Below are positions 7,769-64,000 of a stretch of DNA of 64,000 nt, in pieces. How positions within the stretch are numbered: position 1 is the first letter of the stretch; each line of letters begins with the position of its first letter. Origin of the DNA: an uncultured Ruminococcus sp. (lineage in GTDB: Bacteria; Bacillota; Clostridia; Oscillospirales; Ruminococcaceae). A model generated the notes under the pieces. The model did no database searches. It worked only from the letters and a program-made list of their open reading frames with translations, and was not told the DNA's origin. Location of the stretch: NCBI GenBank assembly GCA_947629455.1, contig CANRDT010000003.1, positions 1 to 64,000 on the forward strand. Reading direction: 5' to 3'. The position numbers and the translations under genes are program-made.

Positions 7769-7833
7769 CCCCTTTCCATAACTTCATTATATCAAAAAAT
7801 TATTAAGAAGTCCTTAAACCGAGAATGAAAAGC

Positions 7834-8105
7834 CACGGAAATCAATTTTTGATTTCCGAAGAAGTCAGAACGCTACGCTTTTAAGAGGTAAGAGGTAAGA
7901 CAATGAGCGCCTGCGGCGCATATTTTAAAATATTATTCCGCGCAGTTTTGGAAGATTTTTGTTATATTTTCCGCCGAAGGCGGAAAATATAACATTAAAT
8001 TATTTTTCCTCCGCCGACGGCGGAGGAAAAATAACACAAAAGTCAACCTGAACAAGTTAAAGTATATTAAAATGCTTACATATAATTTAAAAATTGATTT
8101 CCATG
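7834..8105. repeat. MITE-like element, chimeric copy (copy A)
   Basis: TIR CACGGAAATCAATTTTT ... AAAAATTGATTTCCATG; perfect 10-bp direct repeat AATGAAAAGC at 7824-7833 and 8106-8115; two internal palindromes (GTTATATTTTCCGCC-GAA-GGCGGAAAATATAAC and TTATTTTTCCTCCGCC-GAC-GGCGGAGGAAAAATAA). Confidence 0.85.
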
Positions 8106-8210
8106 AATGAAAAGCTTTTTTAATAATAACGTGATAATTTATCATAAAAAACATTCCCCCTCCGCGGAGAATTTTCCGCAGCGGGGGATAAAACTTTTAA
8201 AACATCTGCG

Positions 8211-23713: not shown

Positions 23714-25471
23714 ATGACTTTAAAAGTAAATAAGCCGGCGCTTGCGGCGGCAACGGCAGGTCTTATGACTATGTCGGCTATGTCGGCGTTCTCACTTGCA
23801 GGATCAGCCGCGCAGAACAGCGAGATCACCCTGTCGGCGGACAAGCTCACCGCCTCGGCAGGCGATATGGTAAACGTAAAAGTGGGATTTGAACCGGGCG
23901 ATACGGGCGCGGCAGGATTCACGATCGACCTGCATTACGATCCCGACAAGGTAGACGTCTATATCCCGAACAGTACTGAGCTTTCTTCAAAGTACGATGT
24001 CGGCAGCAAATTCTCCGTAATTGCCAACTATTCCTCCGCTCCGGGCGAGGTGAGAATAGTCGGCGCGAACCTTTCGAGCGACAACATTACCTCCGATACC
24101 GATCTTGCTCTTGCAAGCTTTAAGGTAAAGGACGGCGCAAAAGGTGATCTGGATTTCTGGGTGGAAGTAGATACTATCGTCTCGGCAAGCGACGACGGAT
24201 TTGTCAACGCGGCATATTCCGCTCCGACCGAAAGTTCGCCGTTTACTGTCAGCGTTCCCGAAAAGACCGTGACAAAGGCGACGACAACTACGACCGCCGC
24301 GGCAACGACAAGCGCCACCACTACAAAAGCCGAGACTGTATCTACCACGGCAAAGCCTACCACCACAAAGGCTGAGACTGTGTCCACAACGACAAAGCCT
24401 ACCACCACAAAAGCTGAGACTGTGTCCACAACGACAAAATCCACCACCACAAAAGCCGAGACCGAATCCACAACATCAAAAGCTACTACCACTACAAAAG
24501 CCGAGACCGAATCCACAACGGCAAAAACCACTACCACTACAAAAGCGGTAACGACCACACAGCCGCAAACTTCCGAGGAAACGGAAAAGCCGCAGGTGAC
24601 GACTGTTCCTCAGTCCACCCCGGAGAGCAATACCGCCGAGCAGCAGACAACGCATGCGGAAAAAGTTCCCGAAGATGAGCAGCTGCCGACCTCACCCGAG
24701 GTAAACGACAGTGATGTGGATAGCTCCAGCGACGAGCAGACAAGTCTGTTCAGCTACACTCAGGGAGATACGGATTTCAATTCCGAGGAAGATCTCAGCT
24801 ATTCGTTCAGTCTGGACGACTACATAACCGATTATTCCAGAAATTACAACATCAGCGTTGACATAAGCACTACGGGCAATGTGAACGGCGGCATTGGTAT
24901 GAATGTCGGCGGCGAATGGGTATCTTTCCGCAGCACTTCCCATTATGTGGACAAAGACGTCTGGACCGCGGAAAATATCGACCCCAACAAGACGGGCAAT
25001 GATGTTTTCGTGCAGCTTTATTATCTCAAAGCAAATGCGACGTTCAGCATAGACGCTATCACGGTCGAGCCGACCGAAACTGTTTCTGCACCGACGGATC
25101 AGGACGATGAACAGACTCCCCTGCCCGAGGAACAGCCGCAGGTCAGTGAAACCACGGATAATACGAATGATACGGATAACACATCAGACGAGCAGTCTGC
25201 GGAGAATGATAATGCAAACGGCGCAGACGCAGATAATTCCGACGACACCGCAGCGCCTTCGACAGGCGAAGAGCAGACAGCAGACCCCGAGGTCATAGAA
25301 GAGGCAGTAGACAGTGCAGCGGCGGAGGCTGACAGTCAGCCTGATCACAATCCCACTACCGGCAGCAAGGCAAGTCCGATAAAGTTTTTGCTTATGCTTG
25401 CCTGCCTTGGCGAAATTGCATGGTCACTGTTCGTAACGGTATTCAACCGTCTGAAAGGCAGATCGGAATAA
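23714..25471 (+). CDS. Cohesin-domain surface protein with Thr-rich repeat and NPTTG-type C-terminal sorting-like signal
   Basis: Signal peptide; cohesin-like domain (ITLSADKLTASAGDMVNVKVGFEPGDTGAAGFTIDLHYDPDKVDVY...); TTTKAETVSTTTKP repeats; C-terminal NPTTGSKASPIKFLLMLACLGEIAWSLFVTVFNRLKGRSE. Confidence 0.85.
   Translation: MTLKVNKPALAAATAGLMTMSAMSAFSLAGSAAQNSEITLSADKLTASAGDMVNVKVGFEPGDTGAAGFTIDLHYDPDKVDVYIPNSTELSSKYDVGSKFSVIANYSSAPGEVRIVGANLSSDNITSDTDLALASFKVKDGAKGDLDFWVEVDTIVSASDDGFVNAAYSAPTESSPFTVSVPEKTVTKATTTTTAAATTSATTTKAETVSTTAKPTTTKAETVSTTTKPTTTKAETVSTTTKSTTTKAETESTTSKATTTTKAETESTTAKTTTTTKAVTTTQPQTSEETEKPQVTTVPQSTPESNTAEQQTTHAEKVPEDEQLPTSPEVNDSDVDSSSDEQTSLFSYTQGDTDFNSEEDLSYSFSLDDYITDYSRNYNISVDISTTGNVNGGIGMNVGGEWVSFRSTSHYVDKDVWTAENIDPNKTGNDVFVQLYYLKANATFSIDAITVEPTETVSAPTDQDDEQTPLPEEQPQVSETTDNTNDTDNTSDEQSAENDNANGADADNSDDTAAPSTGEEQTADPEVIEEAVDSAAAEADSQPDHNPTTGSKASPIKFLLMLACLGEIAWSLFVTVFNRLKGRSE
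24317..24548 (+). repeat. Intragenic tandem repeat of about 42-45 bp, five or so units
   Basis: Units of ACCACNACAAAAGCNGAGACNGNNTCNACNACGNCAAAGCCT encoding TTTKAE(T)(V/E)STT(T/A)K(P/S/A/T). Confidence 0.9.
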
Positions 25472-28740: not shown

Positions 28741-28925
28741 CATTGAAATCAATTTTTACAAAATTGATCTTAAAAAAACAAGATTTTCAGAGACAAGAAG
28801 CAAGAAAAAAGTCTGCAAAGCGGAATAATATTTTAAAATATTCGCCGTAGGCGCTCCTTGTCTGACCTCTTACCTCTTAAAAGCGCAGCGTTCTAACTTC
28901 CGGAAATCAAAAATTGATTTCCGAG
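28741..28925. repeat. MITE-like element, type-1 copy B (inverted relative to copy C)
   Basis: Flanked by perfect 10-bp direct repeat GGCGCACGGT at 28731-28740 and 28926-28935; terminal AAAAATTGATTTCCGAG; body near-identical in reverse complement to 34841-35023. Confidence 0.85.
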
Positions 28926-34840: not shown

Positions 34841-35023
34841 CACGGAAATCAATTTTGATTTCCGTAGAAGTCAGAACGCTGCGCTTTTAAGAGGTAAGAG
34901 GTAAGACAAGGAGCGCCTGCGGCGCATATTTTAAAATATTATTCCGCTTTGCAGACTTTTTCTTGCTTCTTGTTTCTAAAAATCTTGTTTTTTAAGATAG
35001 ATTTTGTTAAAATTGATTTCCAT
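34841..35023. repeat. MITE-like element, type-1 copy C
   Basis: CACGGAAATCAATTTTGATTTCCG ... AAAATTGATTTCCAT; flanks GGGCTTAAAC (34831-34840) and CGGCTTAAAC (35024-35033), 9/10 match. Confidence 0.85.
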
Positions 35024-35110
35024 CGGCTTAAACTTTTACGCCTTGAAATGCCTGCGCTTTTATGTTATAATACAGTATATTAAATGACAGAATTTTGCGA
35101 GGTTTGAAAA

Positions 35111-37070: not shown

Positions 37071-37290
37071 CAAGGAATTCAATTTTAAAATTTTGTGTAA
37101 GCATTTTTTATGCAGGCGGTTATATTTCATTGAATAAAGGAATCTTTTTTGCTGTTTTCCTCGCCAACGGCGAGGAAAACAGCTTTTAGTGTATATTTTC
37201 CGCCTGCGGCGGAAAATATACCCCGAAACAGACTATTTTCCCCAATGGGGGGGAAAACAGTATCCGTAAAGTTGAAAATTGATTTTCGTG
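37071..37290. repeat. MITE-like element, type-2 copy E
   Basis: Left end CAAGGAATTCAATTTTAAAATTTTGTGTAAGCATTTTTT, right end GAAAATTGATTTTCGTG; internal palindromes GCTGTTTTCCTCGCC-AAC-GGCGAGGAAAACAGC and GTATATTTTCCGCC-TGC-GGCGGAAAATATAC; degraded direct repeat at the ends. Confidence 0.75.
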
Positions 37291-39269: not shown

Positions 39270-39588
39270 GAAGTAAGAGGTTAGAGAAAAGAGGTAAGAA
39301 ATGCTTATTGTGACCTTGTACCGCAATAAATTCAAACCGCCCGATTTGCAAGGTCTGACCGCGCCGCACATTGCAGAGGGCGACAAGCGCGCCCGCGCGA
39401 GGGCAGACTTTTTTGTTATTTTTCCTCCGCCAGCGGCGGAGGTCCTCCCGGACGGGGCATTTCCGCCCGTCCACGGTGCATATCGATTCGCCTTTATAAA
39501 TGGGGCGGAGAAAGTTTTTTGGCATTTTGCTGAAATATACAAAATATAACAATAAGGCTAAATATACCCTCATAAATTGATTTCCGTG
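39270..39588. repeat. Degenerate MITE-like modules, copy N
   Basis: Contains AGAGGTAAG modules, TTATTTTTCCTCCGCC-AGC-GGCGGAGG, CGGAGGTCCTCCCGGACGGGGCATT and right end AAATTGATTTCCGTG. Confidence 0.6.
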
Positions 39589-54547: not shown

Positions 54548-54715
54548 GCATGGAAATCAATTTTTGATTTCCAGAAGTTAGAACGCTACGCTTTTAAGAG
54601 ATAAGAGGTAAGACAAGGAGCGCCTGCGGCGCATTATTTTTAATATTAGTTCGCTTTGCAGACTTTTTTCTCGCTTCTTGTCTCTAAAACTCATGTTTTG
54701 GGAAATCAATTCTCT
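54548..54715. repeat. MITE-like element, type-1 copy D (right end degraded)
   Basis: CATGGAAATCAATTTTTGATTTCCAGAAGTTAGAACGCTACGCTTTTAAGAGATAAGAGGTAAGACAAGGAGCGCCTGCGGCGC parallels copies B and C. Confidence 0.75.
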
Positions 54716-56579: not shown

Positions 56580-56598
56580 GTTTTTGGGAGGGTATTGA

Positions 56599-56811
56599 AC
56601 GGAATTGAATTTTATAAGAGTGCTTTTAGTCTTATAATTATATTTCGCTCAGTCCGGCGAGATTTTTGTTATATTCTCCGCCTGCGGCGGAGAATATAAC
56701 ATTAAATTATTTTTCCTCCGCCAACGGCGGAGGAAAAATAACCCAAAAGTCTGCATTACCAAGTAAAATAAATTAAAATGCTTACATAAAATTTTAAAAT
56801 TGATTTCCGTG
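56599..56811. repeat. MITE-like element, type-2 copy J
   Basis: Ends ACGGAATTGAATTTTAT ... ATTTTAAAATTGATTTCCGTG; palindromes GTTATATTCTCCGCC-TGC-GGCGGAGAATATAAC and TTATTTTTCCTCCGCC-AAC-GGCGGAGGAAAAATAA; flanking GGTATTGA at 56591-56598 and 56814-56821. Confidence 0.8.
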
Positions 56812-63845: not shown

Positions 63846-64000
63846 CAAGGAGTTCAGTTTTGAAATTTTGTGTAAGCGTTTTTTATCTTAGGTAATTGGC
63901 AGCTTTTTTGGTTATTTTTCCTCCGCCGCAGGCGGAGGAAAAATAATTTAATGGTATATTCTCCGCTGTTAGCGGAGAATATACACCAAAAGCCGACTAT
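63846..64000. repeat. MITE-like element, type-2 copy M (truncated by window end)
   Basis: CAAGGAGTTCAGTTTTGAAATTTTGTGTAAGCGTTTTTTATCTTAGG parallels copy E left end; TTATTTTTCCTCCGCC-GCA-GGCGGAGGAAAAATAA and GTATATTCTCCGC-TGTTA-GCGGAGAATATAC palindromes. Confidence 0.75.

Follow-up and report, generated by a model that had tools for sequence, protein, structure and literature searches.

Copy A, an element in the window (the whole 64,000-nucleotide stretch analysed), is a member of an amplified sub-family of hybrid MITEs rather than a lone recombinant. It is highly probable that this sub-family, in its Ruminococcus / Oscillospiraceae host, is derived from ISAs1, originated in a single microhomology fusion, was copied in trans and later exchanged arms between copies. 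Copy A and its parts are placed as follows.

7834..8105, + strand: copy A, hybrid (type-3) MITE, 272 bp
7824..7833, + strand: left target site duplication copy AATGAAAAGC, 10 bp
8106..8115, + strand: right target site duplication copy AATGAAAAGC, 10 bp
7834..7850, + strand: left terminal inverted repeat CACGGAAATCAATTTTT
8089..8105, - strand: right terminal inverted repeat CATGGAAATCAATTTTT (inverted)
7834..7933, + strand: type-1 left module, from identity to type-1 copies
7934..7941, + strand: 8 bp microhomology TATTCCGC at the junction, common to type 1 and type 2
7942..8105, + strand: type-2 right module, nearly identical to sub-family T2a
7960..7994, unstranded: first internal palindrome, folding at -20 kcal/mol as RNA
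8000..8034, unstranded: second internal palindrome, folding at -26 kcal/mol as RNA

The initial annotation described copy A as a chimera with a type-1 left part and a type-2 right part, spanned as a whole by a 10 bp duplication. This is borne out by 93–97% identity on the left, a T2a-like right part and the perfect (10/10) duplication of AATGAAAAGC on both sides. The terminal inverted repeats are 17 bp with one mismatch. The match to type 1, previously drawn to about 115 bp, is real but ends at about 108: positions 1–100 of the element have a mean identity of ~93% to 12 type-1 copies and positions 1–108 are 96–97% identical to type-1 copy B, beyond which the alignment breaks down. Copy J, which had been named as the match for the right part, is indeed of type 2 and 84% identical over positions 92–272, but is a more distant copy; the nearest type-2 relatives are found beyond the window, on contigs C35, C31, C20, C33 and C5, with 94–96% identity over the same positions. 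Identity to T2a is 1.00 over positions 121–180, and over 121–272 the two are essentially identical save for loop and end changes. No ORF of at least 100 aa overlaps copy A, and there are no Rfam matches at gathering score within the window. The joined flanks of copy A, compared with 16 genomes of the genus as a search for an empty site, gave partial matches, none of which spans the junction.

The genome is a 2.04 Mb draft of 54 contigs, 86% complete, in which the terminal end sequence (≤2 mismatches) occurs 229 times, against 0 for the reversed pattern. When flanks were swapped between elements a duplication of at least 9/10 was seen in 0.02% of pairs, while in the same strict test 11 of the 69 true pairs had one; a search with boundary shifts allowed found 44 non-overlapping elements with a duplication of at least 9/10. 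These two controls mean that the features of copy A are not due to chance. It is short with inverted ends, has a target duplication and no transposase gene, and its ends are multicopy, as in a MITE. Copies were parsed in 40 stretches and match flanks, amounting to 838 kb or 41% of the genome, and the copy counts from this DNA are lower bounds biased toward places with hits. The other copies in the window are listed here.

28741..28925, - strand: type-1 copy, 185 bp, 10/10 target duplication
34841..35024, + strand: type-1 copy B, 184 bp, 9/10 target duplication
54549..54699, + strand: type-1 copy for which a matching right end was not found
56598..56811, + strand: type-2 copy J, 214 bp, 9/10 target duplication
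37071..37290, - strand: type-2-like copy, 220 bp, 8/10 duplication, with different palindromes
63846..64000, - strand: type-2-like copy, extending to C3:64055 past the window

The source of the ends is found in related genomes. At locus L283 (genome G034, another species) there is a 1230 bp ISAs1-family IS with CACGGAAATCAATTTT at both ends, a perfect 16 bp that is identical to the MITE ends, and an unbroken frame of 384 aa that matches NF033564 at 287 bits. The contig starts at the end of this IS, and the 10 bp target duplication is read from the MITEs. A decayed 1230 bp ISAs1 copy with these ends is also present in G150 (L217/L290). Judged by the ends they have in common with the 1230 bp IS of related genomes, the elements are ISAs1-derived MITEs. 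Target duplications of the ISAs1 family are ~8–10 bp (ISfinder), a range that the 10 bp duplication of the MITEs fits. Several genera of the family have many copies of the MITE ends, with 67 in G042 and 56 in G316 and controls near 0. No ISAs1 transposase was found in the element's own genome, the 86% complete draft. Multicopy IS are frequently lost in draft assembly, and the transposase may have been lost from the genome or may be absent from the draft. From the identity of the ends and the length of the duplication, the MITEs are probably moved in trans by an ISAs1-type enzyme carried by relatives. An IS4/IS231-type transposase had been suspected from the end sequence; there are no PF01609 matches in the element's own genome, and the transposase at these ends in the relatives is ISAs1.

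Three structures can be distinguished in the 838 kb. Type 1 is ~185 bp, type 2 is 213–215 bp and the hybrid is ~270 bp, some copies having deletions or insertions. Types 1 and 2 have common ISAs1-like ends and different interiors, and many copies of both, with their own ends and their own target duplications, are present alongside the hybrids. The junctions are TATTCCGC|TTTGCAGA in type 1, TATTCCGC|TCAGTTTTGC in type 2 and TATTCCGC|GCAGTTTT in the hybrid. A search for chimeras with the junction of copy A, suggested in the initial annotation, showed that at least 13 copies have it, copy A included, and it is not the case, as had been considered there, that all copies have the structure of copy A, with at least 16 type-1 and at least 21 type-2 junctions in the same DNA. 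The hybrid junction is identical in all 13 counted hybrids, save for a C-to-T change in three; a further hybrid, C4:21044, has lost the junction through deletion. Among the elements parsed there is no reciprocal hybrid with a type-2 left and a type-1 right part. The proposal that the recombinant moved as a unit is supported for copy A and beyond it, eight hybrids having duplications of different targets (10/10 for copy A, C4:46855, C44 and C7; 9/10 for C21, C2, C11 and C4:21044). Misjoining of reads from two repeat copies, for which a 54-contig draft containing such repeats offers the opportunity, can practically be discounted as the origin of the hybrid structure, since a perfect duplication spans copy A and other hybrid loci combine the same junction with other duplications.

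Thirteen copies with one junction indicate that the fusion is ancestral and was then amplified, and that copy A is not itself the first product of recombination. The simplest reading is one fusion inside the 8 bp microhomology, followed by transposition. The first hybrid would have arisen once, through microhomology-mediated fusion at TATTCCGC, either by template switching or by deletion between neighbouring copies in the same orientation. Both of its outer ends would be substrates of the same ISAs1 transposase, so that the fusion would have remained mobile and could have been copied around in trans.

The initial annotation had suggested end-swapping. Repeated use by the transposase of a type-1 left end with a nearby type-2 right end, the segment being moved and its interior lost, would give hybrids of many origins. 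Neighbouring type-1 and type-2 copies in the same orientation do exist, 189 and 851 bp apart, yet in both pairs type 2 precedes type 1, the opposite of what this hybrid would need, and repeated end-swapping should leave differing internal junctions where the 13 hybrids have one, save for point changes. A composite in a relative speaks for such events. L202 (G105:C18:32897–35081; L202:198–2382) is a 2185 bp unit flanked by a perfect 10 bp duplication. Its left part resembles a MITE and contains an inner right end of its own; its right end is ISAs1-like and resembles a transposase C-terminus by eye. Between these are a TetR gene and a 400 aa ORF, without Pfam match and membrane-protein-like. Such a unit suggests that ends lying far apart can act jointly, and by analogy with this composite only, transposase-mediated end-swapping is plausible as a process; as the origin of the hybrids it is unlikely. 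The idea fits the later replacement of the right arm of copy A by that of T2a, while the overall pattern looks like that of microhomology fusion and exchange from copy to copy.

Evidence for this later exchange comes from the right arms of the hybrids, which resemble different type-2 sub-families. The right arm of copy A clusters with T2a (support 93/92), whereas the copies C4/C21 and C10/C44 pair up separately. Forcing five hybrids into one clade for the right arm was rejected with a p-AU of 0.038, a marginal value from few informative sites. A permutation test in the style of PHI, run on 28 sites, gave P=0.0007 for site incompatibility, which indicates recombination; a first recombination test that included one copy with a deletion was uninformative. 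The left-arm tree was likewise uninformative on a single hybrid origin (p 0.125). The right arms have been exchanged again after the first fusion. The clustering with T2a and the two tests together indicate that copy A is probably hybrid twice over, with the left arm and junction of the hybrid and the right arm of T2a. Exchange between dispersed copies would have swapped the arms to give this combination.

The distribution in other genomes gives a direction to these changes. When copy A was compared with 398 genomes of the family its left half (1–108) had matches of up to 82% in other genera, and type-2 and hybrid matches were short pieces only, with the best two candidates per genome scored. 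Complete type-1 elements, whose right end is also of type 1, occur in other genera, for example at L203 (10/10 duplication), L232, L238 and L245, the carriers being rumen, roe-deer and rabbit MAGs labelled Ruminococcus or Clostridia. Type-2 and hybrid-junction sequences are absent from all loci examined from other genomes. In 15 other genomes of the genus the element was not found, save for a 41 bp piece of a related element in G012. That complete type-1 elements occur elsewhere, where neither type 2 nor the hybrid was found, makes it most likely that type 1 is oldest and the hybrid derived. It is very improbable that the structure of copy A is instead ancestral, with types 1 and 2 derived from it by arm replacement or deletion. 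The hybrid is multicopy and diverse, its other copies being 85–92% identical to copy A, as an ancestral form might be, but it was not found in the other genera with complete type-1 elements, and deletion alone cannot yield the right end of type 1 or the left end of type 2, neither of which is in copy A. In the type-1 MITEs of relatives at L236, L238, L239, L240, L244 and L245, several different internal sites have insertions of ~20 bp palindromes, GTCTGAACTTCGTTCAGAC being one example.

Other units have the same modular appearance. At C5:37040–37383 (in L067) a hybrid left half and an inverted type-2 left half are joined via the palindrome and a 70 bp repeat. There is no target duplication at this mosaic, which is therefore not evidence of a mobile unit and is likely to be a rearrangement through the palindrome. 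In G050 a 939 bp unit (L191:536–1474) and a 673 bp unit (L188:1501–2173) have CACGCAAATCAATTTT-type ends and duplications of 9/10 and 10/10; there is no transposase-sized ORF in the 939 bp unit. A broader and rather doubtful reading is a modular MITE system throughout the Oscillospiraceae, in which hairpin and end modules would be continually exchanged among ISAs1-ended elements, palindromes would serve as exchange points, also in inverted form as at C5:37040–37383, and units would sometimes capture genes, as in L202.

The elements lie between genes, 25 in tandem, 14 in divergent and 13 in convergent gaps, against 241, 86 and 94 of all gaps by crude ORF calls. A terminator role for the palindromes was considered from gene orientation, and there is no convergent excess. 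The palindrome loops (7960–7994, 8000–8034 and those of other type-2 and hybrid elements) are reverse complements between copies, GTT/AAC and TGC/GCA, and look as if hairpins had inverted. A ~70 bp repeat starting TCCTCCCGGACGGGGCATTTCCGCCCGTCC is present at 39443–39513 in the window and on C34, C13, C7, C5, C4, C9 and C6. It has 21 copies within the DNA read. Most of them immediately follow a ...GGCGGAGG palindrome stem in a type-2 or hybrid MITE, and in two copies the GGCGGAG(A) stem sequence is found again on the far side, like a 7–8 bp duplication. This repeat, which has no Rfam match in the window, is possibly a nested element that targets hairpins. Also in the window, 42–45 bp direct tandem repeats are present at 24303–24537 within the ORF at 23714–25471.

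With parents, hybrid and re-exchanged hybrid all having target duplications, the origin and spread of a chimeric MITE can be traced in one bacterial genome. ISAs1 is the likely mobiliser of repeats that are abundant in Ruminococcus-like bacteria of rumen and gut, and the cargo unit L202 suggests that such ends can move genes. No paper joining Ruminococcus and ISAs1 was found in the literature searched. What is new here is the ISAs1-derived MITE family with its amplified hybrid sub-family, mosaic MITEs themselves having been described already; the hybrids are an unusually clear, not a fundamentally new, case of MITE diversification.

The elements are like known ISAs1 IS and MITEs in having 16 bp ends identical to those of the 1230 bp IS, a 10 bp duplication and no gene inside. 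They are unlike them in that no host transposase was found, the interior is not recognisably that of an IS, and there are two types and a hybrid. BOX, RUP and SPRITE are short intergenic hairpin repeats, some with exchangeable internal blocks. As modular or palindrome-bearing short repeats they resemble the elements here, whereas ends, host and mobiliser differ, and membership is not claimed. RUP and SPRITE are named in a review of prokaryotic MITEs which treats MITEs as recombination hotspots (PMC10969869). TIMEs and TIME-COMP, which are Tn3-derived MITEs, form mosaics and composites for which transposition as a unit was shown experimentally (PMC4133298). TIMEs are alike in being non-autonomous and in building mosaics and composites, but they are derived from Tn3, generate 5 bp duplications and are usually single copy, whereas the elements here have ISAs1 ends, 10 bp duplications and a copy number of the order of 100.
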